Positions 12,298 through 27,770 of a stretch of 44,616 nt of DNA are shown here, one piece after another. The first letter of the stretch is position 1. Each line of letters begins with the position of its first letter. This DNA comes from Oscillospiraceae bacterium. Its GTDB lineage: Bacteria > Bacillota > Clostridia > Oscillospirales > Ruminococcaceae. The notes under the pieces are model-generated. The model worked only from the letters and a program-made list of their open reading frames with translations, was not told the origin of the DNA and made no database searches. The stretch spans positions 1-44,616 of the forward strand of contig JAFUNR010000027.1 in the NCBI GenBank assembly GCA_017472965.1. The letters are read 5' to 3'. A program made the translations under genes and the position numbers.

Positions 12298-12326
12298 TTG
12301 TATTTTGTCTTTGCATTTGCTATAAT
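12298..12326 (+). promoter_or_regulatory. Promoter of ktrB-ktrA
   Basis: TTGTAT (12298-12303), a 17-nt spacer and a perfect extended -10 TGCTATAAT (12318-12326), about 50 nt upstream of ktrB. Confidence 0.8.
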
Positions 12327-12377
12327 AAAAAAACATAAAGAAAACTGCGCCGCGCTGCGGCGGGAAAGGAGCGCCCC

Positions 12378-13748
12378 ATGCCGAAACGGGACCGCAGCCG
12401 GAAAATTTCTCTTTCCACCACACAGATCATCCTTCTCAGCTTTCTGGCAGTCATCGGACTGGGCAGCGGGCTGCTGGCGCTGCCGGTCAGTGCGGCGGAT
12501 GGCGTGGGCGTGGCCTATGTCGATGCGCTCTTCACCGCCACCACCGCCGTGTGTGTCACCGGTCTTACCGTGCTTCCCACCGTTTCGGCGTGGAGCGTTT
12601 TCGGCCAGACGGTGATCCTGCTGCTGGTGCAGATCGGCGGCCTGGGGGTCATCACCATCCTTTCCGGCATGATGATCGCGCTGCAGCGGCGCATCGATAT
12701 CGGTACGCGGGTGCTGATACAGGATGCTTTCAATCTGAACGGACTTTCCGGCATAGTGCGCTTTGTCAAGCGGGTGCTGCTGGGCACGCTGACGGCAGAG
12801 GCTGCCGGCGCGGTGCTGTATATGCTTGCCTTTGTGCCCCGCTTCGGCGCAAAAGGGATCTGGATGGCGGTGTTCACCGCGGTGTCCGCCTTCTGCAATG
12901 CGGGACTGGATATCTTCGGCGAGCAGAGCCTGTGTGCCTTCGGCACGGATCCGCTGGTATGCGGCACCACCTGTGCGCTGGTGATCCTGGGCGGTCTTGG
13001 CTTCCCGGTGTGGTGGGATGTGCTGCGTATCTGCCGGCACGGGCGCGGACGGGGTCTGCGCCGCCTGCGGGAGCTTTCGCTGCACAGCAAGATCGCGCTT
13101 TCCGTCACGGCGGCGCTGCTGGCGGCGGGCACGGCGGCATTCTTTGTGCTGGAGCGCACCAATCCGCAGACTCTGGCCCCCCACAGCCTTTTCGATCAGC
13201 TGCAGCTGGCGTTTTTCCAGTCCGTCACCACCCGCACGGCGGGCTTTTACACGCTGCCGCAGCAGGATCTGACCAACGCGTCGGCTTTCGTATCGCTGCT
13301 GCTGATGTTCATCGGCGGTTCGCCGGCGGGCACGGCGGGCGGTATCAAAACCGTCACGGCGGCGGTGCTGACAGCGTACACCCTTTCGATGGTGCACGGA
13401 AAAAATGAGGTCGGTCTCTGGGGCCGAAGCATCACCCGCCAGACACTCAGCAAGGCGGTGGCGGTGACAGCGGTATCCTTTGCCACCGTGTTTTTCTCCA
13501 CCGTGCTGCTGGCAGCGGTCACCGATGCCCCGGCACTGGATATCCTGTATGAAACAGTCAGCGCTGCCGCAACGGTGGGCCTGACCCGAAACCTGACCCC
13601 GCAGCTGACGGTGTGGGGCAAGCTGATCGTTACATGTACCATGTATCTGGGGCGCGTGGGGCCGATCTCGCTGGCGGTGGCTTTCGGCACCGGAAAAGCA
13701 GCTCCCAATATCATCCGCAATCCCATCGAGGATATCAGCGTGGGCTGA
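12378..13748 (+). CDS. ktrB: Potassium uptake channel subunit KtrB/TrkH
   Basis: The 456-residue integral membrane protein has the four pore-loop repeats of the TrkH/KtrB superfamily, each with its selectivity-filter glycine: TTAVCVTGLT (about 60), SAFCNAGLD (about 177), TTRTAGF (about 292) and AAATVGLT (about 403). It forms the K+ translocating subunit, gated by the cytosolic KtrA ring. AAAGGAG lies 6 nt before the ATG. ktrA follows after 23 nt, so the two form an operon. Confidence 0.92.
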   Translation: MPKRDRSRKISLSTTQIILLSFLAVIGLGSGLLALPVSAADGVGVAYVDALFTATTAVCVTGLTVLPTVSAWSVFGQTVILLLVQIGGLGVITILSGMMIALQRRIDIGTRVLIQDAFNLNGLSGIVRFVKRVLLGTLTAEAAGAVLYMLAFVPRFGAKGIWMAVFTAVSAFCNAGLDIFGEQSLCAFGTDPLVCGTTCALVILGGLGFPVWWDVLRICRHGRGRGLRRLRELSLHSKIALSVTAALLAAGTAAFFVLERTNPQTLAPHSLFDQLQLAFFQSVTTRTAGFYTLPQQDLTNASAFVSLLLMFIGGSPAGTAGGIKTVTAAVLTAYTLSMVHGKNEVGLWGRSITRQTLSKAVAVTAVSFATVFFSTVLLAAVTDAPALDILYETVSAAATVGLTRNLTPQLTVWGKLIVTCTMYLGRVGPISLAVAFGTGKAAPNIIRNPIEDISVG

Positions 13749-13771
13749 TGGCGAAAGGAGTTTACAGGCAT

Positions 13772-14422
13772 ATGAGCATTCATAAATCTTACGCAGTATT
13801 CGGGCTGGGCCGCTACGGTCTGGCGGTGGCAAAGGAGCTTGCCGAGAGCGGCGCCGATGTGATGGCCGTGGATGCGGACGAAGCACTGGTGCAGGATGCC
13901 GCCGCCGAGCTGGCGGTGTGCAAATGCGCCGATATCACCGATCCGGATGCGATCCGGCAGCTGGGCATCTCCAATGTGGATGTGGTGATCATCGCCATGG
14001 CCGGAAATCTGGAGGCCAGTGTTATGGCGGTCACCCTGTGCAAGGACGCCGGCGTGCCCACCGTCATCGCCAAGTGTGGCAGCGAGATGCACCGCCGTAT
14101 CCTGCTGCGCGTGGGCGCGGACAAGGTGGTTTTTCCCGAGAACGAATCCGGTATGCGGCTGGCCAAAAATCTGCTCAGCTCCGGCTTTGTGGATATGATC
14201 GAGCTCTCCCGCAATGTGTCCATGGTGGAGCTGGAGGTGCGTTCCGAATGGTGCGGCTGCAGCCTGCAGGAGCTGAATCTGCGCAAAAAGTATTCCATCA
14301 ATGTGGTTGCCATCCGCAGCGACGACGGTGTGAGCACCGATATCGACCCGCATCTGCCGCTGAATGCCGGAATGAAGCTGATCGTCATTGCCGATGTGAA
14401 CCGGCTGGCCCGGCTGAAATAA
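13772..14422 (+). CDS. ktrA: Potassium channel gating subunit KtrA/TrkA
   Basis: The 216-residue cytosolic protein has an N-terminal RCK Rossmann domain (FGLGRYGLAVAKELAE, with an acidic residue at the end of strand 2) and a C-terminal TrkA_C domain (about residues 135-216). RCK proteins bind ATP/ADP or NAD and, in Gram-positives, often c-di-AMP through the C domain; a c-di-AMP receptor (darA) also lies in this window. The ATG at 13772 follows GAAAGGAG at 11 nt. It is co-transcribed with ktrB. Confidence 0.92.
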   Translation: MSIHKSYAVFGLGRYGLAVAKELAESGADVMAVDADEALVQDAAAELAVCKCADITDPDAIRQLGISNVDVVIIAMAGNLEASVMAVTLCKDAGVPTVIAKCGSEMHRRILLRVGADKVVFPENESGMRLAKNLLSSGFVDMIELSRNVSMVELEVRSEWCGCSLQELNLRKKYSINVVAIRSDDGVSTDIDPHLPLNAGMKLIVIADVNRLARLK

Positions 14423-14483
14423 GGGCGCGGGGCGGTCACGCCGCGATTTTCCCGCCCTGTAAAAACCGGATCCTGCCTTCCGC

Positions 14484-14513
14484 ACTGCCGCCTGTATCGG
14501 GCGGCAGTTTTCT
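14484..14513 (+). terminator. Terminator of ktrB-ktrA
   Basis: ACTGCCGCC (14484-14492) pairs with GGCGGCAGT (14500-14508), followed by TTTCT. Confidence 0.75.
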
Positions 14514-14546
14514 GTCCATACTGGATAGCGGAAAAGAGGGATGGGT

Positions 14547-14945
14547 ATGCGTTTTCGGTTGTATGCGCCTGCGGCGGATGCGGCGGGCGGCGCGGTGCTG
14601 GCACTGGCGCTGACACTGGCGCTGTGGTGCCCCGGCCGGCTGCCGGTACGGCTTGCGTGGGCACTGGGGATCGGCGGGGCGGTGTGGCTGTATCTGCGGC
14701 TGTATGTGCGCTGCGCCTGCTGGGGCGTGCGGGGCGGTGCGCTGTATCTGTGCACCGGTGTGGCGGCGGCACGGGTGCAGCTGCTTTCGCTGGATACTGT
14801 CACCGCGCTGCACTGCCGCTTTCTGCCCGGCGGCGGCTGCGTGCTGCGCATTTGCTGGCGCGGCGGGGGTGCAGTGCTGCCCTTTGTGCGCCGTGCCGAT
14901 GCACAGGCCCTGCAGCGCCGCTGGCAGCAGGATAAAGAAACATGA
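14547..14945 (+). CDS. Small membrane protein with PH-like C-terminal domain
   Basis: This encodes 132 residues: two N-terminal hydrophobic segments (about 10-28 and 38-53) and then a short beta-rich domain that ends LPFVRRADAQALQRRW, a layout typical of bacterial PH-like (YdbT/YdbS-type) membrane proteins. The match is by pattern only. I place the start at the ATG at 14547, six nt after AGAGGG; the ATG at 14541 abuts the Shine-Dalgarno. It lies between two terminators, so it is probably monocistronic. The function is unknown. Confidence 0.55.
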   Translation: MRFRLYAPAADAAGGAVLALALTLALWCPGRLPVRLAWALGIGGAVWLYLRLYVRCACWGVRGGALYLCTGVAAARVQLLSLDTVTALHCRFLPGGGCVLRICWRGGGAVLPFVRRADAQALQRRWQQDKET

Positions 14946-14950
14946 AGATG

Positions 14951-14997
14951 AAAAGACCGGAGACTTCCATCGGAGAGTCCCCGGTCTTTGTGTTTTG
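14951..14997 (+). terminator. Strong terminator after the PH-like gene
   Basis: AAAGACCGG-x-GACT pairs with AGTC-x-CCGGTCTTT (14952-14989), followed by GTGTTTT. It insulates the blaI promoter from upstream transcription. Confidence 0.85.
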
Positions 14998-15060
14998 AAA
15001 TGCGGTACGCGGTGAAACGGCCGTGCGATCTTCTGATTTGTGAAAAATACAGAAAAACAG

Positions 15061-15115
15061 TTGACAGATGCTTATGACAAGTGTAATATGATAATTGTCA
15101 TAAGACGTTTGTCAA
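15061..15115 (+). promoter_or_regulatory. blaI promoter overlapped by a four-half-site palindromic operator
   Basis: The promoter is TTGACA (15061-15066), a 17-nt spacer and TAATAT (15084-15089). It is embedded in a two-layer dyad: CTTATGACAA (15071-15080) with TTGTCATAAG (15095-15104), and outer TTGACA (15061-15066) with TGTCAA (15110-15115). This gives four TGACA/TGTCA half-sites. BlaI/MecI repressors bind dyads of this TACA/TGTA-like kind across their own promoter, so it is very likely the autoregulatory operator. Confidence 0.85.
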
Positions 15116-15151
15116 CGATTTTTAACCCCGCAGAAAGGAAGGTATGAGAAT

Positions 15152-15535
15152 ATGCAGGAGATCAGACGTTTGCCCGACAGCGAGCTGGAGGTGATGAAGG
15201 TGGTGTGGGATGCCGCAGCGCCCGTCACCCGCAGCGACATCCAGAATGCGCTGCGCGATAAAAGCTGGGCCACCCCCACCTTTCAGGCGCTGCTGGCGCG
15301 GCTGGAGGAAAAGGGCTTTCTGACCCATGAGAAAAACGGCAACACCTTTGTATATACCGCGCTCATCCCCTGTGCCGAGTATCTTGCGGTGGAAAGCCGC
15401 ACCGCCCTTGGACGGATGTTCGGCGGCAGCCCCGCCCGTCTGGTGGCCGCACTGCATCAGACCGATTCCCTCACCGATGCGGATGTGGACGAGCTTTACG
15501 CCTATCTGTGCGAACTGAAGGAGGGCCGCCTATGA
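15152..15535 (+). CDS. blaI: BlaI/MecI-family transcriptional repressor
   Basis: The 127-residue protein has an N-terminal winged helix (LPDSELEVMKVVWD through LARLEEKGFL, about residues 7-62) with the wing NGNTFVYTAL, and a C-terminal helical dimerisation region. In the BlaI/BlaR1 paradigm the repressor is inactivated by proteolysis when the M56 membrane sensor is activated; the sensor is the next gene and overlaps it by 4 nt (ATGA). The repressor promoter carries a matching palindrome. The target genes are inferred to be this operon, including at least the next two lipoproteins. Confidence 0.88.
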   Translation: MQEIRRLPDSELEVMKVVWDAAAPVTRSDIQNALRDKSWATPTFQALLARLEEKGFLTHEKNGNTFVYTALIPCAEYLAVESRTALGRMFGGSPARLVAALHQTDSLTDADVDELYAYLCELKEGRL

Positions 15536-17997
15536 TCACCGATGCCCTGATGCGCTGCTTTGCGGTGTGTCTGGCGGTGGGCGCAGCGGTGGGTCTGCCG
15601 GTGCTGGCGGCTGTGCTGCTGCGGCCGGTGCTGCGCCGCCGGTATTCCGCCGCGGGCTGCAGTGCGCTGTGGATGGGGCTTGCCCTGCTGCTGGCGGTGC
15701 TGCCGCCGGTGCTGACGGCTGCCGGCGCGGCTGTGCCGGCACTGACTGCCGTACAGCATACTGCCGTTACGGCTGTGACCGAAAGCGCCGGTGCATCTGA
15801 AATCGTCGATGAGATGCAGCAGGGCGCGGAGGAACAGCCCCTGCCGGATACCTCTGCCGCAGCGCAGGATACGGTGCCCTCTGCGGAGGAATACCCGCAA
15901 AGCTCTGCGCCCGTTTCCGCCGCTCCGAAGAAAAGCGAAGCAGCATCCGGCGATTTTTCTGCTTTTGCACAGCACCTTGTGCTTCCCGCGGCGGCGGCAG
16001 CGGCGCTGCGTATCGCCGCAGGTATCTGGCTTGCGGGCGCGGTGCTTTTTGCCGCGGTGCTTGCGGTGCGCCAGCTGGTCTGGCGTGCACAGTGCCGCCG
16101 CTGGGCGCAGCCCGTACCGGAAGAAGCCGCCGCGCTGTATGCGCAGCTTTGCGCGCAGCTGGGCGTGCGCCGTGTGCCGCTGCTGCAGTGCACCCGCTGG
16201 GTCGGTGCGCCCATGCTCACCGGCGTGCTGCGCCCCGTGCTGCTGCTGCCCGCCGTGCCGTGGCAGCGGGAGCACCTGCTGTATATTTTCGCCCATGAGC
16301 TGATCCATCTGCAGCGGCGGGATCTTGCCCGCAGCCTGCTGCAGTGCGCTGCCGGAGTGCTGCACTGGTACCATCCGGCGGTGTGGCTGCTGGGCGCTGC
16401 CGCCCGCCGCGATGCCGAACAGGCCACCGATGCCGCCGTGCTGGCGCTGGGCGGCTCCGGCTGCTTTGCAAATGACCTTTGCGCCGCCGGGCGCAGTGCC
16501 GTCTACGGTGAAGCGCTGCTGCACAGTGTGCGCCGCGCCGCTGCGCCGCTGGGCGCAGGGTTCTCCGTTTCCAAAAAGGAGATGAAGGAACGCATGAAGC
16601 ATCTGTTCGATCCCCGCCCCGGCCGCCGCGGTGTGCTGCCGGTGTGTCTGCTGCTGTGCCTGAGCCTTGCCGCCGCCCTGTTCGCCGGCTGTGCTGCCGG
16701 TACGCTGCAGGTGCAGACCGCCCCCGAGGAAAGCGCCGATACCGCTGTCCGCACCGAAGCGGACTCTCCGGAGAGCGCTTCTGCCCAGACCATCACCCTC
16801 GCCGCGCAGACGCTCACCTATACGGGCACGCCGCCCGGACAGCTGACCTGGCCTGTGCCGGAATACGCCATGGTCTCCCGCCTGTTTGAAGGGGTTGACG
16901 AGCACAGCGGGCTGGATATCGAGGCCGCCCGCGGTGCGGATATTGTTGCCGCCGCAGACGGCGTGGTGATAAAAGCCCGCTATGCCGATGACGGCCTCGG
17001 CTACGGCAATTACATCGTTCTGGATCACGGTGACGGTGTCACCACCCTGTATGCGCACTGCCGCGAGCTTTGCGCCGCGGCGGGCGATACCGTGAGTGCC
17101 GGGCAGTGCATCGCCCGTGTGGGCAGCTCCGGCAAGGCGGTGAGCAACCACTGTCATTTTGAATATCGTCATAACGGCATCGCGGAGGATCCCGCCCGCA
17201 TCGGCTTCCCCGATGTGCTGGTGACGGAGCACACCTCCACCCGCTGGAACATCCCGACAATGCACGGCTTCAGCCGCTGCAGCCGCAATACACAGGGCGA
17301 CGGCATACTGTTCGCGGTGAAGGCCTTTTCCACCGTCTCTGCCGCAGCCGGCGGCGTGGTGGCCGAGGTCGGCTCCACCCCGCAGGATGGCGAATACCTT
17401 GTGCTGGATCACGGCCGCGGCGTCACCAGCCGCTATACCCATCTGGCCAATGTTGCTTACAGCAGCGCCGGCGCAGAGGTGGAAAAGGGCTGGCCGCTGG
17501 CCGAAGCGGATGCATCGGGCTGCATCGGCTTTGTGGTGTACCGCGGCGGCAGCGCCATCGATCCATACACCTACTGCTGGCCGGGAATGCAGACGATGAC
17601 CGGGCTCAAAGGCAAGGGCCTGTGGCCCGTGCCGGAATATGAATCCGTGGCGCGGGAATTCACCGGCCTGTATCAGCACAACGGTCTGGATATCGCCGCA
17701 CAGACCGGTACGGATATCGTGGCCTTTGCCGACGGCACCGTCACAACGGCGGAAAAAGCATCCATCGGTTACGGCTGGCATATCATCATCGACCACGGCG
17801 CAGAGGTATCCACCCTGTACGCCCACTGCGATGAACTGTATGTAAAGGCGGGCGATCAGGTAAAGGCCGGTCAGATCATCGCCGCGGTGGGCAGCACCGG
17901 CTACTCCACCGGCCCGCACTGCCATTTTGAATACCGCATCGCCGGCGAAGCGACGGATCCCGCCGCCTATCTGGAAACCCCTCAGCCTGCGGTATGA
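15532..17997 (+). CDS. BlaR1-like M56 membrane protease fused to three M23 (LytM-like) modules
   Basis: The 821-residue protein has N-terminal membrane segments (about 1-25, 30-70 and 150-180), then the M56 zinc-protease site H255-E-L-I-H259 with a downstream Glu in DAEQATDAAV. A last membrane segment (about 367-385) leads to a long extracellular part. That part has three M23-type modules: module 1 with H458-x3-D462 and H540-x-H542, a middle module (about 580-690) that lacks all the metal ligands, and module 3 with H716-x3-D720 and H796-x-H798. M23 enzymes cut peptidoglycan cross-bridges. Where BlaR1 has a penicillin-binding sensor domain, this protein has peptidoglycan-hydrolase folds, which suggests wall sensing. 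It starts at ATG 15532, coupled to blaI. Confidence 0.82.
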   Translation: MITDALMRCFAVCLAVGAAVGLPVLAAVLLRPVLRRRYSAAGCSALWMGLALLLAVLPPVLTAAGAAVPALTAVQHTAVTAVTESAGASEIVDEMQQGAEEQPLPDTSAAAQDTVPSAEEYPQSSAPVSAAPKKSEAASGDFSAFAQHLVLPAAAAAALRIAAGIWLAGAVLFAAVLAVRQLVWRAQCRRWAQPVPEEAAALYAQLCAQLGVRRVPLLQCTRWVGAPMLTGVLRPVLLLPAVPWQREHLLYIFAHELIHLQRRDLARSLLQCAAGVLHWYHPAVWLLGAAARRDAEQATDAAVLALGGSGCFANDLCAAGRSAVYGEALLHSVRRAAAPLGAGFSVSKKEMKERMKHLFDPRPGRRGVLPVCLLLCLSLAAALFAGCAAGTLQVQTAPEESADTAVRTEADSPESASAQTITLAAQTLTYTGTPPGQLTWPVPEYAMVSRLFEGVDEHSGLDIEAARGADIVAAADGVVIKARYADDGLGYGNYIVLDHGDGVTTLYAHCRELCAAAGDTVSAGQCIARVGSSGKAVSNHCHFEYRHNGIAEDPARIGFPDVLVTEHTSTRWNIPTMHGFSRCSRNTQGDGILFAVKAFSTVSAAAGGVVAEVGSTPQDGEYLVLDHGRGVTSRYTHLANVAYSSAGAEVEKGWPLAEADASGCIGFVVYRGGSAIDPYTYCWPGMQTMTGLKGKGLWPVPEYESVAREFTGLYQHNGLDIAAQTGTDIVAFADGTVTTAEKASIGYGWHIIIDHGAEVSTLYAHCDELYVKAGDQVKAGQIIAAVGSTGYSTGPHCHFEYRIAGEATDPAAYLETPQPAV

Positions 17998-18080
17998 CCG
18001 CAGCCCGTCGTGCGGCCCGATGACAGGAGCATTCCCGGCGGCTGGATAACGGCCCCTCCGAAAAAAGAAAGGAGTCTTCC

Positions 18081-20561
18081 ATGAAAAAGCTGAAAAAAGC
18101 GCTGTGCCTGCTGCTGTGCGCCGCGGTGTGCTTTTCGCTGCTTGCCGCCTGCGCCGAAGCCCCGCAGCAGGATCAGCCCCCTGTTCCGGATACCGGAACC
18201 CTTGTCGAAGCGGGGGAAACCGGGGCCGCGGTGGATGCCGACCACGCGCTGGGACTTCCCGGTCTGCGGGCGGACGGTGAGCTGCAGCAGCTGCTGCAGG
18301 ATATCGAATATTACAGGCATGCGCTGGGCGGCGGCGTGCTGTGGGCATGGGGCAAGGCCCGCGGCACACTGGATCGCGCCATCGCTTCGGTGCCGCTGGA
18401 TGGCTCTGTCGGGCAGGTGCTGACACTGCACTTTCCCGCTTCGGATGAGCAGCGCAGGATCATCACGCCGGAGGAGGAGGCCCGCGGTGTGATATCGGTC
18501 AGCGTCGGCTACGATCCCACCGACAGCGCGGGCGAATACCCGATGCTGGTCCGCAGCCGCGTATGCTTTACCGGCGAACCGGGCAAAGAGGTGTGGGAGA
18601 AAGAAAACCTGTGGCTCTGCACGGTGGATGCGCAGGGCAATGTGTCCGAGGGTGTTCCCATCGCACAGGATGTGAACGGAGAGGAGACGGATGCCGCCGC
18701 TTCCTTTGCCTGCTGGGGGGTCAGCGGCGGCACATTTTGGGGCTGCACCCAAAAAATGAATGAACAGACAAAGACGATCGATTCGCTGGAACTGCAGGGC
18801 TATGATGCTGCCGACGGCGCGCTGAAGGCGCAGTACAGCTTTCCGCCGCTGTTCAGCTTTGTCGATCTGTATCCGCTGAATGATTCCACCGTGCTGGTGC
18901 TGGGCTACGCGCGGGAGCAGGAGGACGGCAAATTCCTGAACGGCGACGACCGGTGCGTTCTTGTGGTGGAATTTGCGCAGGGTAAGGGCAAGCTGCTGCA
19001 AACGGTGGAGCTGCCCGACAGCATCCGTCTGAATGCATATATGTGCTGTTTTGCCCGGTCGGTGCAGCCCGGCCCGGTGTGGCTGCTGGGCAGCCGCGGG
19101 CTGTACCTGTGGGATCTGGAGGAAAACACCTTTACGCTGAAGCACGATATACAGGATGTGGGTATGACGCAGAATCTGCCCAACCGCGTTTATGCGGTGA
19201 ATGAGGATACCTTCTATCTCACCTCAGGCTCGATGAAGGTGGTCGGTCAGGATAAGCTCAAACAGGTTTTCGAGGTGTGGCTGCTGGGTGAGGATGTGAC
19301 GCTGCCGGCGGATGAACGCCCCGTCGTCACCGTGGGGGCGTTTGCCTTTAACAAGGCCGCCGTTCATACCGCTGTCCAGTCCTTCAACAAAATCAGCGCC
19401 GATCTGCGGGCCGAGATGATCACCTACACCGATGCCGATGCCAAAGCCGCCGGTTTGGAAAGCGCACAGGAACTGCTCAACCGGGATATTCTGCAGGGCA
19501 CCGCGCCGGATGTGATCACCGGCCTTTACGGCGCAGACCTGCGCCAGCTGGTGGGCAAGGGCGCGATCATGGATCTGTATCCCCTGCTGGATGCGGATGC
19601 GGAGCTTTCGAGGGAGGATTTTGCCGCAGGGCCGCTTTCCGCCGGTACGGTGGACGGCGGGCTGTACGGCATCATCACCGAGTACAGCATCCTGACCGCG
19701 GTGGGCAGCGCCGGAAAGCTGGGGGAGGAAATGGGCTGGAGCACGGATGAATTCGCCGCACTCACCGCCGGCATGCCCACCCCGTACTACGGCTTCGGCC
19801 GCGATACGCTGCTGTGGTATCTGTTTCAGGCAGGTGCTGACCGCTATATCGATTACGCCGCCGGCAAAGCGCATCTGGATACGCCGGAATTCGCCGCCAT
19901 GCTGGAAGGCTTTGCCGCTTACCCCGAGACCATGGGCTATTTCCTGACGCAGGATCTCAAGCCGCTTTTTGACGGGGGTCAGGCAGCTGCCGCCGTCTGT
20001 TTTATCATGGATTTCAGCACCGTCAAAGATCAGGTCTACACCTTCAACGGTCCGGTGGTGTACAAGGGCTTTGCCGGTGCTGCGGGCAGCGGCAGCCTGC
20101 TTGCGCCGGGGCTGCAGCTTTCCGTGTGCGCGTCCTCGCCCCGAACCGATGCCGCGTGGCGCTTTGTGCGGTATTTTCTTTCGGCGGAGTACCAGTTCGA
20201 TCTGACCGTTGCCCTGCCCCTGCGCCGCGATGCACTGGCAGCCGCCGCCCAGGAAGCGCAGGAGCCCTATCTGGATCTGAATACGGAGGATGGCATTCTT
20301 TACTGTATCCCCTCGTATCTGGATCAGCGCACCACCAATCAGAATATCATCGATTATTGGACCCGCGGCCTGACGCCGGAGGAGACGGATAAGATCGTCG
20401 CCCTTGCCGAGGCCACTTCCGTTCCCTTCCTGTACGACGATGTGGTGATGGGGATCCTGACGGAGGAGGCCTCCGCCTTTTTCGCCGGTGCACGCACCGC
20501 TGCGGATGCCGCTGCCATCATGCAGAACCGCATCCAGACCTATCTGGATGAGCAGGGGTAA
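18081..20561 (+). CDS. Lipoprotein: propeller-like N-terminal half plus solute-binding C-terminal half (paralogue 1)
   Basis: The 826-residue lipoprotein has signal peptide and lipobox LLAAC (Cys24). Residues about 40-400 have repeated short beta-strand blocks of the kind LWLCTVDAQGNV, YDAADGALKAQY and GLYLWDLEENTFTL, suggesting a beta-propeller. From about 412 the chain reads like an ABC-type solute-binding protein (COG1653): VVTVGAFAF, a hinge GLYGIITEYS, DEFAALTAGM, and the closing QNRIQTYLDEQ. No permease or ATPase gene is nearby, so a sensing or scavenging role is as likely as transport. AAAGGAG lies 6 nt before the ATG. It follows the M56/M23 gene by 83 nt with no terminator seen, so it is probably under blaI control. 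Confidence 0.75.
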   Translation: MKKLKKALCLLLCAAVCFSLLAACAEAPQQDQPPVPDTGTLVEAGETGAAVDADHALGLPGLRADGELQQLLQDIEYYRHALGGGVLWAWGKARGTLDRAIASVPLDGSVGQVLTLHFPASDEQRRIITPEEEARGVISVSVGYDPTDSAGEYPMLVRSRVCFTGEPGKEVWEKENLWLCTVDAQGNVSEGVPIAQDVNGEETDAAASFACWGVSGGTFWGCTQKMNEQTKTIDSLELQGYDAADGALKAQYSFPPLFSFVDLYPLNDSTVLVLGYAREQEDGKFLNGDDRCVLVVEFAQGKGKLLQTVELPDSIRLNAYMCCFARSVQPGPVWLLGSRGLYLWDLEENTFTLKHDIQDVGMTQNLPNRVYAVNEDTFYLTSGSMKVVGQDKLKQVFEVWLLGEDVTLPADERPVVTVGAFAFNKAAVHTAVQSFNKISADLRAEMITYTDADAKAAGLESAQELLNRDILQGTAPDVITGLYGADLRQLVGKGAIMDLYPLLDADAELSREDFAAGPLSAGTVDGGLYGIITEYSILTAVGSAGKLGEEMGWSTDEFAALTAGMPTPYYGFGRDTLLWYLFQAGADRYIDYAAGKAHLDTPEFAAMLEGFAAYPETMGYFLTQDLKPLFDGGQAAAAVCFIMDFSTVKDQVYTFNGPVVYKGFAGAAGSGSLLAPGLQLSVCASSPRTDAAWRFVRYFLSAEYQFDLTVALPLRRDALAAAAQEAQEPYLDLNTEDGILYCIPSYLDQRTTNQNIIDYWTRGLTPEETDKIVALAEATSVPFLYDDVVMGILTEEASAFFAGARTAADAAAIMQNRIQTYLDEQG

Positions 20562-20644
20562 GAAAGCGGATTCCCCGCTTGCCGCCGCAGCACTTACCCC
20601 CTTTTTGGCTCTCCCTCTCTCCTCAAAAAAGAAAGGAGCCTTCC

Positions 20645-23095
20645 ATGAAAAAGCTGAAAAAAGCTCTGTGCCTGCTGCTGTGCGCCGCGGTGTGCCTTTC
20701 GCTGCTTGCCGCCTGCGCCGAAGCCCCGCAGCAGGATCAGCCCCCTGTTTCACAGGATGAAAGCGCCGCTGCCCCGGCGCAGCCGCCCGCCGCCACGGTG
20801 GATTTGGAGCATTTTCTGCCGATCAGTGCATATCAGGTTGCCCCGCAGCTGGAAACGGAATATGATTACGTCGATGTGATGAACTCCGTTTTCTGCGGCG
20901 GGCATCTGTGGCTGCTTGCCGTCAGAACGGTGGAGGATACCGCCGAAAGAGTCCTGTGCGGCATTTCGGCGCAGGGCGAGGTTGTCAGCGTTCCGCTGCA
21001 GCTGCCTGCGGCGGATGAGCAGCTCAAGGCTGCTCCGCCCGAGGGATACCGGTACCTTATCAGCTATCAGCCGGTGGATGCCGGCGGTGCGCTGCCGGGG
21101 CTGCTGCGTACCGTCACGCTTTCGCGGCAGGTGGAAAACGAAGACGGATCCTATTCGCTGCACGCCGAGAGCAGCCAAAGATACCTTGCCGCTGTGGATG
21201 AACAGGGCGCGGTGGAGGAAGGCGTGCTCATCCCCTTTTCTCTGGCGGAGAACGAGGGAAGGAACTATCTGAACACCGGCGGCGGTCTGCTGTGGTTTTA
21301 CAGCACATGGATCGTGTATCAGGGCGGTGAGACACCGGCTGAACAGCCGGTCGCTTTGTACGGTGTTTCCCCGCAGGATGGCAGCATCGCGGCGGAATAC
21401 CCCATGCCGGATAATATGAGCCCCGATGCCATGCAGCTGCTGCCGGATGGCCGCCTGCTTGTCACCGCTATTCCGGCGGATCCCGCCACCGGCATCCGTT
21501 ATTTCAGCAGTGCGCAGACCCTGATCCTCTCGCTGCAGCAGGATACGCTTGTATTGGAGGAGCAGTTCCAGATGCCGCAGCGGGTGCGGGAGAACCGGGG
21601 GACCGGCACCTTCGGCGGCTGGGAGCATGCCGGCGATGAGCTGTGGCTGAGCAATGGCGAGGGCGTTTACCTGTGGAACAAAACGGAAAACACCTACACG
21701 CTGCGTTACCGGTGGGAGGATTGCGGTCTGGCGGGTATGTTTAAAAACGGCCGTGCGCTGCTGCCGGACGGCCGCATCCTGATCGTCACCGGCGGCGGCG
21801 CCGGCGAAGCGCCCCGTGTCTGGCTGGCAGGCGGTACGCCGCCCGAAACGCAGGATGCCCGCACCGTCCTCACGCTGGGCGCGGTGAACAGCATGGATGC
21901 AGCCCTCGCCGATTTTGTGATCCGCTTCAATCAGGAAAACGAAGCCGTCCGCATCGAGCCGGTGCTTTACACCGATGCCGATGCCGCCGAACAGGGGCTG
22001 GCGGACGGTGTCGGGCTGCTGCAGCGGCAGCTGGTGCAGGGCAATGTGCCGGATATCCTGCTGCTGCCCAACGGTATGGATGCTGCCGCACTGTCCGATA
22101 AGGATTTTTTCATCGATCTTTACCCGTATCTGGATGCGGATACCGGGCTTTCCCGCGAGGATCTTGTGCGGGGCGTGCTCGCCGCCTGTGAAGCGGACGG
22201 CGCCCTGCCCACCCTGATGCCGCAGTACGGTCTGCTCACCGTTGTGGGCAGTGCCGCCGCGCTGGGCGGGGATATGGGCTGGAGCTGGCAGGAATACGAA
22301 ACGCTCACCGCCGGTATGTCCGTGCCGCTGTACGGCTTCGGGCGGGATTTCGTGCTGCATTATCTGCTCAAAGCCGGCGGCAGCCGCTTTGTGGATTTTG
22401 CCGCAGGAAAGGCGCATCTGGATACCCCCGCCTTTGCCGGCCTGCTGAATGCAGCAAAGGCCTATCCCGAAACGGCGGTCTACTACACCGGACAGGACTG
22501 CAAGCAGCAGCTTGCCGGGGGCGAAAGCGCCGCAGCCATCAGTTTTCTGTCAGGCTTCGGCAATATGCGGTACGATGTGTACGCCTTTGACGGTCCGGTG
22601 GTGTACAAGGGCTTCCCCGGCGATGAACAGGGCAGCGGCAGCGCCTTTACCGCCACGCTGCGGCTGGGCATCACAAAAAACTGTGCCGACCCCGATGCCG
22701 CGTGGCAGTTCGTGCGCACCCTGCTGCTGCCGGAATATCAGGATGCCGTGGGTGCAAACGGCGCACCCGGCTTCCCCGTGCGGCGGGATTCGCTGCAAAA
22801 GATGGCTGAGGCTGTCCAAAAGCCGCTGGAGTACCCTGCCGTGCCGGCATATCTGGCGCAGCAGCAGCTGACCCCCGCCATGGAGGAATACTGGAGCCGC
22901 GGCCTGACCGCGGAGGAAGCCGCGCAGATCGTTGCGCTGATCGAAGCCACCGATACTCTGTACCGGTACGACGGCGTGATTTATGATATCCTCGTCGAGG
23001 AGGCCGCGCCCCTCTGGGCGGGGCAGACCACCGCCGAAGCCGCCGCCGCCATCATGCAGAACCGCATCCAGACCTATCTGGATGAGCAGGGGTGA
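20645..23095 (+). CDS. Lipoprotein: propeller-like plus solute-binding (paralogue 2)
   Basis: The 816-residue paralogue 2 has a signal peptide, lipobox (LLAAC, Cys24) and Shine-Dalgarno almost identical at the DNA level to paralogue 1, but most of the mature protein is much more divergent. The N-terminal half again has propeller-type blocks (YGVSPQDGSIAAEYP, GVYLWNKTENTYTLRY); the solute-binding half starts near residue 405 (VLTLGAVNSMD). Shared motifs are YGFGRD, AGKAHLDTP, and the C-terminal IMQNRIQTYLDEQG. The start chosen is the ATG at 20645, 22 codons inside a longer frame, because AAAGGAG lies 6 nt upstream. It is likely in the same transcript as paralogue 1. Confidence 0.75.
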   Translation: MKKLKKALCLLLCAAVCLSLLAACAEAPQQDQPPVSQDESAAAPAQPPAATVDLEHFLPISAYQVAPQLETEYDYVDVMNSVFCGGHLWLLAVRTVEDTAERVLCGISAQGEVVSVPLQLPAADEQLKAAPPEGYRYLISYQPVDAGGALPGLLRTVTLSRQVENEDGSYSLHAESSQRYLAAVDEQGAVEEGVLIPFSLAENEGRNYLNTGGGLLWFYSTWIVYQGGETPAEQPVALYGVSPQDGSIAAEYPMPDNMSPDAMQLLPDGRLLVTAIPADPATGIRYFSSAQTLILSLQQDTLVLEEQFQMPQRVRENRGTGTFGGWEHAGDELWLSNGEGVYLWNKTENTYTLRYRWEDCGLAGMFKNGRALLPDGRILIVTGGGAGEAPRVWLAGGTPPETQDARTVLTLGAVNSMDAALADFVIRFNQENEAVRIEPVLYTDADAAEQGLADGVGLLQRQLVQGNVPDILLLPNGMDAAALSDKDFFIDLYPYLDADTGLSREDLVRGVLAACEADGALPTLMPQYGLLTVVGSAAALGGDMGWSWQEYETLTAGMSVPLYGFGRDFVLHYLLKAGGSRFVDFAAGKAHLDTPAFAGLLNAAKAYPETAVYYTGQDCKQQLAGGESAAAISFLSGFGNMRYDVYAFDGPVVYKGFPGDEQGSGSAFTATLRLGITKNCADPDAAWQFVRTLLLPEYQDAVGANGAPGFPVRRDSLQKMAEAVQKPLEYPAVPAYLAQQQLTPAMEEYWSRGLTAEEAAQIVALIEATDTLYRYDGVIYDILVEEAAPLWAGQTTAEAAAAIMQNRIQTYLDEQG

Positions 23096-23102
23096 TGCAA
23101 TA

Positions 23103-23141
23103 TTAAGAAAATCTTAAACACTCTTTAAACAGTCCTTAAAA
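23103..23141 (+). promoter_or_regulatory. Four direct TTAA-type boxes at exact 11-bp phase
   Basis: TTAAGA (23103), TTAAAC (23114), TTAAAC (23125) and TTAAAA (23136) start exactly 11 bp apart, one helical turn each. The array ends about 9 bp upstream of where the -35 should be for the promoter at 23171-23178. Tandem 11-bp-spaced boxes are the hallmark of OmpR/PhoP-family response regulators. No two-component gene is in the window. Confidence 0.65.
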
Positions 23142-23170
23142 TGCCCCTCTTTTTCTTTCGCCCGTTATAT

Positions 23171-23178
23171 GTTATAAT
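23171..23178 (+). promoter_or_regulatory. Extended -10 promoter of lipoprotein paralogue 3
   Basis: TGTTATAAT (TG at 23170-23171, TATAAT 23173-23178), with only a weak T-rich -35, lies 24 nt upstream of the start codon. The poor -35 fits activation from the adjacent 11-bp boxes. Confidence 0.65.
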
Positions 23179-23201
23179 AAAAGAAAAAGGGGGAACAGCC
23201 G

Positions 23202-25625
23202 ATGAAACGAAACCGTTCTTTTTGCCGTATTTTCTGCTGTTTGCTGTGCGCGGTGCTGCTTGCAGCCTGTGCGGCGGGCGAGCCCGCTGCGGATGAATCC
23301 GTGCCCGCCGCGCAGCCGCTTGCTTCCGAAGAAAAGGAAGCAGTGGTGGATATGGATCACGCGCTGGGTATGGGCGCCATCCGGGCGGATGCGCAGCTGG
23401 ATCTTCTGCTGGATGATATCGAATACTACAAAACCGCGCTGGGCGGCGATAAGCTGTGGGTGTGGGGCAATGCCAGAGGCACCGATGATCCGGCCATCGC
23501 CTCCGTCAGTATGGACGGCACGCCGGGACAGGTGCTGACGCTGCAGTTCCCCGCGCTGGATGCGCAGCTGCAGGTCGCCGCCGAAGAAGCCGGTGCGCTC
23601 GGAAGAATGTTCTACGAGCTGCATGATTCCGCCGGGGAATTCCCACTGCTGGTGCGCGACTGGCACACCGTCCCGGACGAGGAGCACTGGCAGGAACGCT
23701 CGGACAGACGGATGTGGCTGTGCGGCGTGGATGCACAGGGCAATGTGTCCGAAGGCGTTGAGCTGGATATCGAAGACGGGGAGTTTTCGACCCTTGGCAT
23801 AAGGGACGGCATCATCTGGCTGCGGGCTTATGCGGAGGATCCCGCATACGGCACCTATACGGAAAAAGCCCTGTACGGCTTTGATACCGCCGACGGCACG
23901 CTGAAAAAGCGGTACGAGTTTGCTCCGGGCCTGCTGCTGGCGAATCTGTGTCCGCTGGAGGAAAACCGTGTGCTGGCGCATGTGTATGAAATGGATCCGG
24001 CCGACCCCGGCAGAATGAGTGACAATGCGCAGAGGCTGCTGGAGATCGGCTTTGAGGAAGGCGCCGGCAGGCTGATACGGACGGTGAAGCCGCCCCTGCC
24101 TGCGACGAGCTGCATGCAGTTTGTGAACACGGTGCAGGGCGAAGATATCCTGCTGTGGAGCAATACGGGGCTTTTCCGCTGGGATATGGAGGAAAACACC
24201 TATACGCTGCTGCACGATGCCGTGGATGTCGGCATAAACGATATGCCCGGAAAGGTCTACTGCATCAACGGCAAGGATTTTTATCTGACGGTCGGCCATG
24301 TTTCGGTGCAGAAAAATACCCGTAAGGTCAAATTTGAGGTGTGGCTGCTGGGGGATGAGGCTGCCATACCGGCGGATGACCGCCCTGTGATCACCGTGGG
24401 GGTGCTGGCCTCCGCCAAGGCGAAGCTCCACCCCGCCGTGGATGCTTTCAATAAGGCCAGCCCCGATCTGCGGGTCGAGATGGTGGATTATACCCCGGCA
24501 GCCGCCAAAGCCGCCGGTCTGGAAACCGCGCAGGAGCTGCTCAACCGGGATATTCTGCAGGGCACCGCGCCGGATATCATCTCCGGCCTTTACGGCGCAG
24601 ACCTGCGCCAGCTGGTGGGCAAGGGCGCGATCATGGATCTGTATCCCATGCTGGATGCGGACGCAGAGCTTTCGCGGGAGGATTTTGCCGCCGGGCCGCT
24701 TTCCGCCGGTACGGTGGACGGCGGGCTGTACGGCATCATCACCGAGTACAGCATCCTGACCACGGTGGGCAGCGCCGGAAAGCTTGGGGAGGAAACGGGC
24801 TGGAGTATGGATGAATTTGCTGCCCTCACCGCCGGTATGCCCACCCCGTACTACGGCTTTGGCCGCGATACACTGCTGTGGTACCAGTTCCAGGCGGGCG
24901 CTGACCGCTATATCGATTACGCCGCCGGCAAAGCGCATCTGGATACGCCGGAATTTGCCGCCATGCTGGAAGGCTTTGCCGCTTACCCCGAGACCATGGG
25001 GCTGCATGTCAGCGAGGATCTCAAGCCGGTTTTTGATGCCGGTAAGGCCGCGGCAGCGGTCTGCGTTGTCAGCAACTTTGACGGGGTGAAAAATGATGTC
25101 TACACCTTCAACGGGCCCGTCACCTACAAGGGCTTTGCCGGTGCCGCAGGCAGCGGCGGGCTGCTTTCGCCCGGGGTGCAGCTTTCCATCTGCAGCGCAG
25201 CCAAAGACCCGCAGGCGGCGTGGCGCTTTGTGCGGTATCTGCTTTCCGCTGAATATCAGTCGCAGCTTTCCTCTATCCTGCCCCTGCGCCGCGATGCGTT
25301 GGCAGCCGCCGCCCGGGAAGCGCAGCAGCCGTATGTGGATCTGATCCCCAACGACGGCATCATTTACGGCATCCCCTCGTATCTGGATCAGCGCACCACC
25401 AATCAGAATATCATCGACTATTGGACCCGCGGCCTGACGCCGGAGGAGGCGGATAAGATCGTCGCCCTTGCGGAAAACACTTCCGTTCCCTTCCTGTTCG
25501 ACGATGTGGTGATGGGGATCCTGAAAGAGGAGGCCTCCGCCTTTTTCGCCGGTGCACGCACCGCCGAAGATGCCGCCGCCATCATGCAGAACCGCATCCA
25601 GACCTATCTGGATGAGCAGGGGTAA
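23202..25625 (+). CDS. Lipoprotein: propeller-like plus solute-binding (paralogue 3)
   Basis: This 807-residue lipoprotein has its own signal peptide (lipobox LLAAC, Cys23), different from paralogues 1 and 2. The N-terminal half shares blocks with paralogue 1 (WLCGVDAQGNVSEG, GLFRWDMEENTYTL). The solute-binding half from about residue 393 is nearly identical to paralogue 1 over long runs (for example LRQLVGKGAIMDLYP and NQNIIDYWTRGLTPEE), and the similarity runs about 35 nt past both stops. The start has a G-rich Shine-Dalgarno (AGGGGGAA) and its own regulated-looking promoter, so it can be expressed apart from the blaI operon. No transporter partner genes are seen. Confidence 0.75.
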   Translation: MKRNRSFCRIFCCLLCAVLLAACAAGEPAADESVPAAQPLASEEKEAVVDMDHALGMGAIRADAQLDLLLDDIEYYKTALGGDKLWVWGNARGTDDPAIASVSMDGTPGQVLTLQFPALDAQLQVAAEEAGALGRMFYELHDSAGEFPLLVRDWHTVPDEEHWQERSDRRMWLCGVDAQGNVSEGVELDIEDGEFSTLGIRDGIIWLRAYAEDPAYGTYTEKALYGFDTADGTLKKRYEFAPGLLLANLCPLEENRVLAHVYEMDPADPGRMSDNAQRLLEIGFEEGAGRLIRTVKPPLPATSCMQFVNTVQGEDILLWSNTGLFRWDMEENTYTLLHDAVDVGINDMPGKVYCINGKDFYLTVGHVSVQKNTRKVKFEVWLLGDEAAIPADDRPVITVGVLASAKAKLHPAVDAFNKASPDLRVEMVDYTPAAAKAAGLETAQELLNRDILQGTAPDIISGLYGADLRQLVGKGAIMDLYPMLDADAELSREDFAAGPLSAGTVDGGLYGIITEYSILTTVGSAGKLGEETGWSMDEFAALTAGMPTPYYGFGRDTLLWYQFQAGADRYIDYAAGKAHLDTPEFAAMLEGFAAYPETMGLHVSEDLKPVFDAGKAAAAVCVVSNFDGVKNDVYTFNGPVTYKGFAGAAGSGGLLSPGVQLSICSAAKDPQAAWRFVRYLLSAEYQSQLSSILPLRRDALAAAAREAQQPYVDLIPNDGIIYGIPSYLDQRTTNQNIIDYWTRGLTPEEADKIVALAENTSVPFLFDDVVMGILKEEASAFFAGARTAEDAAAIMQNRIQTYLDEQG

Positions 25626-25666
25626 GGAGACGGATTTCCCGCTTGCCCCGCGGCATCCCGCCCCCC

Positions 25667-25714
25667 CTGACTCTCCCTTTGGGAGAGCGGTCACCGCAGG
25701 TGACTGAGAGGGCC
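25667..25714 (+). repeat. Interspersed palindromic repeat, copy A
   Basis: The copy reads CTCTCCCTTTGGGAGAG (a palindrome), a variable GC stem, then GACTGAGAGGG. The same frame of motifs occurs at 27685-27736 (reverse), 33915-33965 and 33992-34044 (reverse). It lies in the intergenic space after lipoprotein 3. Confidence 0.7.
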
Positions 25715-25758
25715 ACAGCCTGATTCGCTGCACCGCCTTTTTGTATCCGCTTTTCTCC

Positions 25759-26817
25759 TCAGCCGTTTTGGGCCAGCCACTCCTCCAGACACAGGCCGCT
25801 TTCGGCAATGGCGGGGGCGGCATCGCCCACATAGCGCCAGTGCCACGGCTCACTGTGTACGCCGGTGACCCCCTCTTTGCCGGCGGGGTAGCGCAGAATA
25901 AAACCGTACTCCGCCGCGTGCTGCACCAGCCATGCATAGGCGGCGGTTTCGGCAAATTCTCCGGTCAGGTCGTCGTGGGTCAGATACCAGTCGCCGCTGA
26001 CCAGATCCGCCGCCAGCCCCAGCGAATGCTCGCTTGCGCCGGGACGCGCCACCCATCCGGCGGCTTCGGCCTCCGCTTCGGCGGCGGACAGCCCTGCATC
26101 GATGCAGCTTTTTACCTTGCGCTCAAATAACCCCTGCTGATATTTTACCGAGCGGTAGCCGCTGACCACATGCAGCGGGCAGCCGTCGGCGGCAGCGGCG
26201 GCAAGCATTTTGTTCAGCGCCGCGGCAGCGGTGCGGTGCAGCTTTTTCTCACTGCCGTCAATGTCGCCCAGCGGCGGCTCGTAGCCCGCCGTCAGCCGGT
26301 TGGCATCGTTCACCAGCACCAGAAAATCCCCCGCCGCGGGGGTGATCTCGATATATGCCTGTCCGCTGCGCGGCACATCCGGCGCGGCGGCCTGTGCCGG
26401 AGCGCTCTCCAGCGCAGAGGAGCTGCTTTTTGCAGAAGAACCGCCTTCCGTAAAAGCGCCGTTTCCGGCAGAGGTACTGTCCGCTGCGGAAGCACTCCCC
26501 CCGGTGCCGGCATCCTCCCGGTAACTGCCCTTGATACTGTTATCCATCTGCCCCGACATGGAATTGCCCGCGCTTGCGGCAAAATCCTGCGCCGGGGTCT
26601 GCTGCCCCGCGTGGGTGGAGCCCGCATCCGGGGTATCCGGCTCGCCCCCGTCCGGTATGCCCGCATCCGGCACGGCGATTTTTTGGGAGCTGTCCGGCGG
26701 GAGCTGTCCGCTGTGTGCCCCCGGCGAAAGCCCCCTGCTGATGCAGCCGGTCAGAAAAATGGTACAGAGCATCGCGGACAGCGCCGCAAAAGTCGCGGTC
26801 AAAAAGCGTTTGAACAT
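25759..26817 (-). CDS. VanY-type D-alanyl-D-alanine carboxypeptidase lipoprotein
   Basis: The 352-residue protein has a lipoprotein signal (lipobox FLTGC near residue 25), then a low-complexity Ser/Ala/Gly/Pro linker (about 30-150), then an M15B peptidase domain: VSGYRSVKYQQGLF (about 225), the zinc site SEHSLGLAADLV (S-x-H-x6-D), and EPWHWRYVG near the end. M15B enzymes trim the terminal D-Ala of peptidoglycan stem peptides. It is extracellular and membrane-anchored. The ATG at 26817 is followed by a proper signal peptide; its only Shine-Dalgarno (GGGAGGG) lies in one arm of a terminator-like hairpin that ends at the start codon. Confidence 0.88.
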   Translation of the reverse strand: MFKRFLTATFAALSAMLCTIFLTGCISRGLSPGAHSGQLPPDSSQKIAVPDAGIPDGGEPDTPDAGSTHAGQQTPAQDFAASAGNSMSGQMDNSIKGSYREDAGTGGSASAADSTSAGNGAFTEGGSSAKSSSSALESAPAQAAAPDVPRSGQAYIEITPAAGDFLVLVNDANRLTAGYEPPLGDIDGSEKKLHRTAAAALNKMLAAAAADGCPLHVVSGYRSVKYQQGLFERKVKSCIDAGLSAAEAEAEAAGWVARPGASEHSLGLAADLVSGDWYLTHDDLTGEFAETAAYAWLVQHAAEYGFILRYPAGKEGVTGVHSEPWHWRYVGDAAPAIAESGLCLEEWLAQNG

Positions 26818-26818
26818 G

Positions 26819-26876
26819 AAAAAAGCCCTCCCTGCAGTACGGTTTTTCACCATTTTCTGCAGCCGGAGGGCTTTTT
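26819..26876 (-). terminator. Terminator-like hairpin that contains the vanY Shine-Dalgarno
   Basis: A 12-bp stem (26820-26831 with 26865-26876, reading AAAAAGCCCTCC / GGAGGGCTTTTT) plus an inner CTGCAG pair is followed on the minus strand by six Ts that end at the vanY ATG. It should end rsmE transcripts, but its 3' arm holds the GGGAGGG that vanY needs. Confidence 0.75.
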
Positions 26877-26888
26877 ATTCCCTTTGCG

Positions 26889-27653
26889 TTATTCCAGATT
26901 TTCCGTAAAGGCCATCACGGCGGTCAGCGCGGCAAGGGGGGCGGTCTCGCAGCGCAGAATACGCGGCCCAAGGCCGATCGGCGTGCTGACGGCGGCGGCG
27001 GCCTGCGCCTCCTCGGGGGCAAAGCCGCCCTCGCTGCCGGTGATGATGGCAATGCGGGGCGCGCGGCTTTCGGCGGCGGCCTTCTGCACCGCGGCTTCCA
27101 CACATTCCCGCAGGCTTGGCCCGCCGGTCTGTGCCTCGTAGCAGAAAAGCGCCGCATCGTATTCCGGCAGCTGCCGCAGCATGGCGGCAAAGGAGAGCGG
27201 CAGCTCCACCGCGGGGATGCAATCCCGGGCGGACTGCTTGACCGCTTCAAAGGCGATGCGGGCATAGCGGGCGTTTTTCTGCTCCTCTTTTTTGGGGGTG
27301 ACCACGCAGAAGCGGGAGAAAAACGGCACGATGCGCACCGCGCCCAGCTCGGTGGCCTTCTGGATGATATGCTCCAGCTTATCCCCCTTGGGATAGCCCG
27401 CATACAGTGTCACCTGCACCGAGGGCTCGGCAGCGCCGGGAGCGGCGGTGAGCACGGCGCATTCCACCGCCGCATCGCCGGCGGCGGTGACGGTGCATTC
27501 GTAGCGCGTGCCCTGTCCGTCAAAGCAGGAAAGCGCCTGCCCCGGCTTTATACGCATCACGCGGACAAGATGGGCGGCCTCGTCGCCGGTCAGGGTCAGG
27601 GTGCGGCCATCCGCCGCGATGTTTTCGGGCGGGCAGTAGTAATGATGTGCCAT
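26889..27653 (-). CDS. rsmE: 16S rRNA (uracil(1498)-N3)-methyltransferase RsmE
   Basis: The 254-residue SPOUT-class methyltransferase has an N-terminal PUA-like domain (HHYYCPPENI, GDEAAHLVRVMRIKPG) and a C-terminal trefoil-knot domain with KGDKLEHIIQKATELGAVRIVPF, ARIAFEAVKQSARDCIP, ITGSEGGFAPEEA and LGPRILRCETAPLAAL, the last being the SAM-binding knot. It methylates U1498 of 16S rRNA. GGAGAA lies 7-8 nt upstream of the ATG. It follows prmA on the minus strand, a common pairing. Confidence 0.95.
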   Translation of the reverse strand: MAHHYYCPPENIAADGRTLTLTGDEAAHLVRVMRIKPGQALSCFDGQGTRYECTVTAAGDAAVECAVLTAAPGAAEPSVQVTLYAGYPKGDKLEHIIQKATELGAVRIVPFFSRFCVVTPKKEEQKNARYARIAFEAVKQSARDCIPAVELPLSFAAMLRQLPEYDAALFCYEAQTGGPSLRECVEAAVQKAAAESRAPRIAIITGSEGGFAPEEAQAAAAVSTPIGLGPRILRCETAPLAALTAVMAFTENLE

Positions 27654-27684
27654 GTGTATTCTCCGGAAATCAAAAAAATGTGTC

Positions 27685-27736
27685 CGGCCCTCTCAGCCGC
27701 GCCGCCGGCGCGGCAGCTTTTCCAAAGAGAGAGCCG
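27685..27736 (-). repeat. Interspersed palindromic repeat, copy B
   Basis: Read on the minus strand this shows the same plan as copy A: CTCTCTTTGG, a GC-rich palindromic centre (GCCGCGCCGGCGGCGCGGC) and TGAGAGGG. It sits between prmA and rsmE, which are otherwise collinear. Confidence 0.6.
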
Positions 27737-27770
27737 GGGGAACAGGTGTGACGGGCGGTAAAGCGCGGGC

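Follow-up and report, generated by a model that had tools for sequence, protein, structure and literature searches.

What does a signalling pair of the BlaI/BlaR1 type respond to when no beta-lactamase accompanies it? The question is raised by a 44,616-nucleotide stretch of DNA (hereafter the window) from Oscillospiraceae bacterium, a gut bacterium, which corresponds to contig JAFUNR010000027.1 of assembly GCA_017472965.1; the genome is 85% complete. An earlier note, made from the sequence alone, had placed five genes in a row in this window, and all five were confirmed where it had put them: a BlaI-type repressor gene, a gene for an M56 membrane protease that ends in M23 modules, and the genes of three large lipoproteins, here numbered 1 to 3. 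The observed gene row is real, beyond chance. The best supported answer, on sequence evidence, is a probably autoregulated BlaI-M56 switch in which wall-enzyme modules appear to have replaced the sensor and which would drive expression of at least lipoprotein 1. The locus is a new variant of BlaI/BlaR1 signalling, and its complete gene order was seen in this genome only.

The repressor and its promoter

The first gene (15152-15535, plus strand, as are all five) codes for a 127-residue protein that matches Penicillinase_R in Pfam (PF03965, E 5.1e-26, 91.7 bits for a cut-off of 22.6) and belongs to the BlaI/MecI/CopY repressors. Upstream of it, at 15061-15115 on the plus strand, a putative promoter is overlapped by an operator-like palindrome. 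TTGACA (15061-15066) and TAATAT (15084-15089) are separated by 17 bases, and the exact palindrome core, TTATGACAA-14-TTGTCATAA, extends over the promoter from 15072 to 15103. The earlier proposal of a BlaI operator in this place is thus borne out as far as a candidate site goes, and the dyad lies over the gene's own promoter, as for BlaI/MecI/CopY repressors. Probably, therefore, blaI is autoregulated, which is the expected reading of such a site.

A genome-wide BlaI regulon is not supported. The 30-base core pattern of the palindrome occurs at one place in the genome with up to 3 mismatches allowed, a search that would overlook a looser operator and that covers a genome 85% complete, so that control of a beta-lactamase or low-affinity PBP from another locus is judged on this scope. 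A shorter box, nACA-(1 to 3)-TGTn, was found within 150 bases upstream of 13 of 22 BlaI genes, including that of the window.

A sensor with three M23 modules

The second gene (15532-17997) overlaps blaI by 4 bases, and its 821-residue product combines a BlaR1-type M56 metalloprotease with C-terminal M23 modules (PF05569 and PF01551). The protease part matches Peptidase_M56 (E 2.7e-31, 109.3 bits for a cut-off of 31), retains HELIH at residue 255 with hydrophobic helices around it, and qualifies as an M56 peptidase. It is followed by three Peptidase_M23 stretches (E 2.3e-73 in Pfam). Modules 1 (16819-17211) and 3 (17593-17994), which are 56% identical, have the zinc-ligand motifs (H458, D462 and HCH540; H716, D720 and HCH796), and module 2 (17212-17601), alignable with both, is degenerate, with HxxxD and HxH missing. 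Both Pfam and the reading of motifs therefore uphold the claim that three M23 modules, two intact and one degenerate, replace the penicillin sensor.

No penicillin-binding outside domain was detected behind the M56 part, where only M23 passes its Pfam cut-off, and neither a beta-lactamase nor a penicillin-binding protein (PBP) was matched among the five gene products in Pfam or NCBIfam. Curated models score the sensor far below their cut-offs (NCBIfam blaR1_generic, 70.7 bits for a cut-off of 400; a second BlaR1/MecR1 model, 15.7 for 1200). On both grounds, the absent domain and these scores, a beta-lactam sensor was rejected.

The window's pair is one of six distinct BlaI-M56 pairs in this genome, all with a large outside domain at the same place but of varying kinds. 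The loci number six rather than seven because those on contigs C50 (L018) and C56 (L019) are near-identical, which is probably due to redundant assembly or strain variants.

M23-tailed M56 proteins are also found in other genomes. An M56 query against 148 genomes of the family gave at least nine alignments, apart from the window's own, that extend from M56 well into M23. Nine such loci were fetched; the genes of all fetched loci were called by a custom script, and starts may be missed or misplaced. A BlaI gene was called beside eight of the nine M56-M23 genes, whose products have one M23 module each. Seven more M23-tailed proteins came from a sample of 111 M56 proteins, their loci being read over 2.9 to 3.9 kb only. 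Three M23 modules were seen in none of these 16 other proteins; a weak second one may be present in L201 and L220. When placed on a quick tree of the M56 proteins, the M23 tail requires 11 changes, for a minimum of 13 and a mean of 16 after shuffling, so that it was probably gained several times.

Are the M23 modules a sensor or the regulated product? In the latter case BlaI would control a membrane-anchored wall hydrolase, the M56 part would serve in its maturation or turnover, and the lipoproteins would be passengers. Two of the three window modules keep their zinc-ligand motifs, and HxxxD and HxH are both kept in 10 of the 16 other proteins, which would be needless for a pure binding domain. 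Nevertheless, one or both motifs are lost in the remaining six (L068, L201, L211, L258, L269 and L276, with L201 truncated at the end of its locus), as they are in the window's middle module, and such losses fit a binding role. Furthermore, the six distinct BlaI-M56 pairs carry varied outside domains where BlaR1 has its sensor. On balance, we find it quite unlikely that the modules are the regulated product, and we retain the exchanged sensor.

As for what is sensed, a relation to the wall is plausible. The fetched stretch includes a separate M23 gene at four of the nine M56-M23 loci and at none of eight M56 loci without M23 (Fisher p 0.08), with stretches of unequal length (4 to 20 kb) and two of the four positives from one genus. 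The locus L065 has an extra M23 gene and also, by reading, ftsE/ftsX-like genes. Given the nature of M23 and these neighbours, the idea of wall-damage sensing is reasonable.

Lipoproteins 1 and 2

Lipoprotein 1 (18081-20561) has a lipobox with Cys24, a beta-propeller and a sugar-type solute-binding protein (SBP) half, and lipoprotein 2 (20645-23095) is of the same family. Pfam finds SBP_bac_1 or SBP_bac_8 in each of the three lipoproteins, and Cys24 is conserved in all 50 aligned relatives, lipoproteins 1 to 3 included, which predicts lipidation. The structure model of lipoprotein 1 suggests a beta-propeller joined to a sugar-type binding protein. By domain, all three are family 1 solute-binding proteins; for lipoprotein 1, the modelled fold agrees with this assignment. 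The propeller-plus-SBP architecture proposed earlier thus stands for the SBP half and the lipobox in all three, and its propeller is modelled for lipoprotein 1.

Are these genes driven from the blaI promoter? The earlier note had named a BlaI-independent promoter at 18000-18080 as evidence to the contrary. A scan of the 83-bp gap before lipoprotein 1 (17998-18080) gave neither a promoter-like nor a terminator-like match, which leaves the gene behind blaI-M56, as that note had it. The scan gives no promoter-like match in the 83-bp gap before lipoprotein 2 either. However, read-through into lipoprotein 2 is less sure because a terminator-like hairpin precedes it (20555-20606, plus strand). Its 8-bp perfect arms, GGGGTAAG and CTTACCCC, enclose a 30-base loop and are followed by C and then TTTTT; such a loop exceeds the range of the terminator scan, and the hairpin was found by other means.

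The propeller-SBP module occurs seven times in the window's genome: three copies are in the window, two lie beside permease genes on C37, and two are fused to M56 as its outside part. The fusions, on C37 and C38, each have a BlaI gene of their own beside them and match the entire lipoprotein 1 module, propeller included, at 32-33% identity. Beyond these two, no M56-SBP fusion was seen in 394 genomes of the order, in a screen that scored at most two candidates per genome and left out one long frame (G096, 1019 residues). As the same class of module is fused to two BlaI-linked M56 proteins, the lipoproteins most likely bind a saccharide or a wall fragment.

Among the 148 family genomes, 17 have the module, the window's included (E up to 1e-40). 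From 133 relatives, the scan of named genomes retained 80 loci, many of them short. Their titles are mostly those of Oscillospiraceae, Ruminococcaceae, Lachnospiraceae and other Clostridia, a few reading only 'bacterium' or Bacillota. BlaI-type genes are present in three of the 80 loci and an M56 gene in one, L185, where BlaI, M56 and lipoprotein genes are consecutive and the M56 tail is without M23. A partnership of the lipoproteins with M56 sensing is thus based on two fusions and L185; that they are also related to importer-linked proteins is shown.

This kinship suggests an alternative, in which the lipoproteins would be spare substrate-binding proteins for a transport system on C37 and would lie behind blaI-M56 by chance. 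In the window, no ATP-binding cassette (ABC) permease was read among the open reading frames (ORFs) overlapping 11000-29000, and the locus is not a complete ABC importer. The earlier statement that no permease is present therefore holds locally; it does not extend to the paralogues, since two of them stand in a row on C37 with two ABC permeases, an HlyD-type adaptor and a MacB-type protein (L030:3489-13291). Rows like this one, often opposite a regulator-sized gene, are present in many relatives, and a literature search for this type of gene row found nothing on it. HlyD-type genes were called in 33 of the 80 loci and MacB-type genes in 29, examples of which were confirmed by Pfam. Lipoprotein 3 also has an upstream box typical of the lipoprotein family. 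Such common ABC partners suit transport as well as sensing. In contrast, fusion of the same module to two M56 proteins of this genome, as their outside domain, speaks against this alternative, and so does lipoprotein 1, which follows blaI-M56 and has no promoter-like site in front of it. In our view, chance placement of transport proteins is unlikely.

Several observations weigh against the model of a BlaR1-type switch with a changed sensor that drives lipoproteins 1 and 2. In the search for its gene order, these lipoproteins were beside M56-M23 in none of the nine fetched stretches, and the only M56 gene among the 80 named loci is the one without M23; the association was thus met in no other genome, a result that the earlier note had listed as adverse. 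The sole genome of the same genus compared (88% complete) gave no lipoprotein match, and no M56 was among its matches listed. In 34 of the 80 loci, MalF/MalG-type permease genes are found no more than 6 kb from the lipoprotein gene and on its strand, nine of the 22 BlaI upstream regions are without the nACA-(1 to 3)-TGTn box, and the terminator-like hairpin stands ahead of lipoprotein 2. With these points taken into account, we place the whole model slightly on the probable side.

The last M56 helix as a possible lipoprotein signal

The last transmembrane helix of the window's M56 protein (16624-16713, hydropathy stretch at residues 365-394) contains a borderline lipobox-like FAGC with Cys387 (16690-16692). 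The corresponding motifs of the C38 and C37 fusions are LIGC and LCGC, the lipobox of C38 being stronger than the window's. It is tempting to speculate that this helix is an internal lipoprotein signal, in which case processing by Lgt and LspA would yield a protease and a lipoprotein module that stays in the membrane, the stand-alone lipoproteins being separately encoded equivalents. Such a split sensor is compatible with the BlaI-M56 switch proposed here.

The idea was examined on 111 distinct M56 proteins, not randomly drawn (88 best-scoring listed matches and 23 obtained by other routes, of which nine were the M56-M23 hits). A signal profile trained on 65 of the lipoproteins (threshold 8.68) passes 25 of the 111 last helices; among the remaining hydrophobic stretches of these proteins it passes 2 of 304, and among shuffled versions of the last helices 45 of 5550. 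A regular expression, written after the sequences had been seen and applied to proteins that are related, accepts 32 of 111 versus 0 of 304, or 32 of 72 versus 0 of 100 when only Cys-containing segments are considered. Both agree on 20 proteins, including that of the window. On the quick tree, 17 M56 proteins lie closest to that of the window, and 12 of them pass the profile; an M23 tail is found in none of these 17. As the last helix reads as a lipoprotein signal far more often than other segments do, some M56 sensors may be freed as lipoproteins. Cutting at this place has a precedent, since staphylococcal BlaR1, described as N-out/C-out, is cut by the signal peptidase SpsB, which sheds the sensor just behind the last helix, according to the available part of the report (PMC9834060).

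On the other side, the window's own site has Phe at position -3, passes the profile narrowly (9.03 for a threshold of 8.68) and fails a G+LPP-type pattern that 26 of the 111 proteins pass. Profile and expression differ on 17 proteins (5 pass only the former, 12 only the latter), and the lipobox label is weakly clustered on the tree (17 changes, for a minimum of 18 and a mean of 22.6 after shuffling). Statistically, the signal is thus supported for a group of M56 proteins, with the window's own protein a borderline case. We take the split sensor to be a serious possibility, without favouring it.

A more far-reaching version would make a group of BlaR1-type sensors polyproteins. The last helix would double as lipoprotein signal, the outside module (M23 triplet, propeller-SBP or Asp-box repeats) would be cut off and stay near the protease as a lipoprotein, and the lone lipoproteins behind blaI-M56 would be exchangeable subunits, with signalling that needs no covalent link. 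We advance this tentatively and hold it to be doubtful. In the one open library searched, no literature was found on BlaR1 together with a lipobox, a lipoprotein route or signal peptidase II. As for the Asp-box repeats, they occur below the Pfam cut-off in L064 and L073, both among the 17 nearest proteins. On C38, an 802-residue lipoprotein-like product with Ycf48/Asp-box repeats is encoded behind the BlaI and M56-SBP genes (L020:7209-9617), and a two-sequence comparison gave a weak similarity between it and L064 (3e-05).

Probable separate control of lipoprotein 3

Lipoprotein 3 (23202-25625) is of the same family and has a separate putative promoter. An array of four TTAA half-sites with 11-bp spacing (23103-23139, plus strand) is followed by TATAAT (23173-23178), the likely -10 element as read from the sequence; the promoter scan lists instead a weaker 9-of-12 site at 23115-23142, within the array. 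No such array arose in 100 shuffles of the window. Control by BlaI, as the simple case, was rejected on account of this array, in agreement with the separate control that the earlier note had proposed.

The array resembles a box found in relatives linked to OmpR-type regulators, where TTAA repeats are in many cases 10 bp apart rather than 11; among the three lipoproteins, only lipoprotein 3 has it. In the loci of relatives, 28 large genes, nearly all of this lipoprotein family, stand opposite a gene for a protein of 225-245 residues. One of these pairs, at L119, was tested with Pfam and consists of an OmpR-type regulator and a histidine kinase. A TTAA-6/7-TTAA box is present in 25 of the 28 gaps, compared with 16 of the 316 remaining gaps in these loci and with 1.8% of shuffles; three of the 28 are without it, and 14 of 45 large genes away from such a regulator carry it. 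Because a related box is found in 25 of 28 regulator-opposed relatives, lipoprotein 3 probably answers to a two-component circuit like those encoded next to many of them. The closest regulator in this genome, on C1, is 53% identical to that of L119 and adjoins a kinase-sized gene.

Elsewhere in the genome, the array pattern occurs at a single place with at most 1 mismatch, C22:19850; at 2 mismatches, shifted registers of the same two places appear, plus C23:17. The array at C22:19850 precedes a gene for a 1178-residue FtsX-type permease (L291:4216-7887), which may belong to the same regulon as lipoprotein 3.

Surroundings of the gene row

Upstream of blaI-M56 lie trkH and trkA (12378-14422 of the window), with one 132-residue ORF in between. 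The order trkH-trkA-blaI-M56 recurs at L075:5819-11557 with a different sensor tail, which may reflect a sensor swap at one site, or chance. Downstream, a gene for a VanY-type D-alanyl-D-alanine carboxypeptidase, apparently a lipoprotein, lies on the minus strand (25759-26817) and converges on lipoprotein 3. Rfam at gathering scores gave no match between 14300 and 26900.

A model and its implications

In the model of an exchanged sensor, the M23 modules would meet peptidoglycan at the cell surface, as a ligand or as a substrate, and a change at the modules would switch on the M56 protease at the inner face. The repressor BlaI would then be cut and transcription of the operon would rise, providing more of the sensor or hydrolase and of lipoproteins 1 and 2. 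The lipoproteins would be extracellular ligand-binding modules acting as co-receptors or scavengers rather than as parts of an ordinary importer, and lipoprotein 3 would have left the BlaI circuit to answer to a two-component system.

Signalling of the BlaR1 type is known from the response to beta-lactams; in this genome, its chassis bears varied outside modules at six distinct loci, among them a wall-hydrolase triplet and a propeller-SBP module. If confirmed, BlaI-M56 would be a general plug-in system for envelope sensing in gut Clostridia, and a lipobox after the last helix would provide a testable rule to mark sensors that are cut free.

Comparison with known systems

The locus shares with BlaI/BlaR1 and MecI/MecR1 a repressor gene that overlaps the M56 gene, a palindrome on its own promoter, and a C-terminal outside module after the last helix. 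It differs from them in having three M23 modules in place of a penicillin-binding sensor, and neither a beta-lactamase nor a PBP is among its five products. Unlike the family 1 solute-binding proteins CbpC, YesO and MalE, the window's lipoproteins have an additional N-terminal beta-propeller, no adjoining ABC permease, and a place behind blaI-M56. As for the M23 modules, they share their fold, by sequence, with M23 proteins of the EnvC/NlpD/LytM type. EnvC is devoid of catalytic residues, and so is the middle module of the window. In contrast to those proteins, M23 is joined here to a membrane protease and accompanied by a repressor gene.

Combinations of M23 and M56 have been noted before. 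In the available portion of a review on M23, M56 is listed among the partner catalytic domains, which together account for less than 1% of hits, and a role of M56 in wall cleavage is said not to have been shown (PMC9662197). The repressor, the triple M23 and the lipoproteins are not mentioned in that portion of the review (PMC9662197). A link between BlaI and the wall has its own precedent in Bacillus licheniformis, where, according to the accessible part of the study, a wall dipeptide releases BlaI and thereby connects it to peptidoglycan turnover (PMC3305447). As described in that part, the target of the dipeptide is cytoplasmic BlaI, whereas the wall-facing part of the window's system is the M56 protein itself (PMC3305447).

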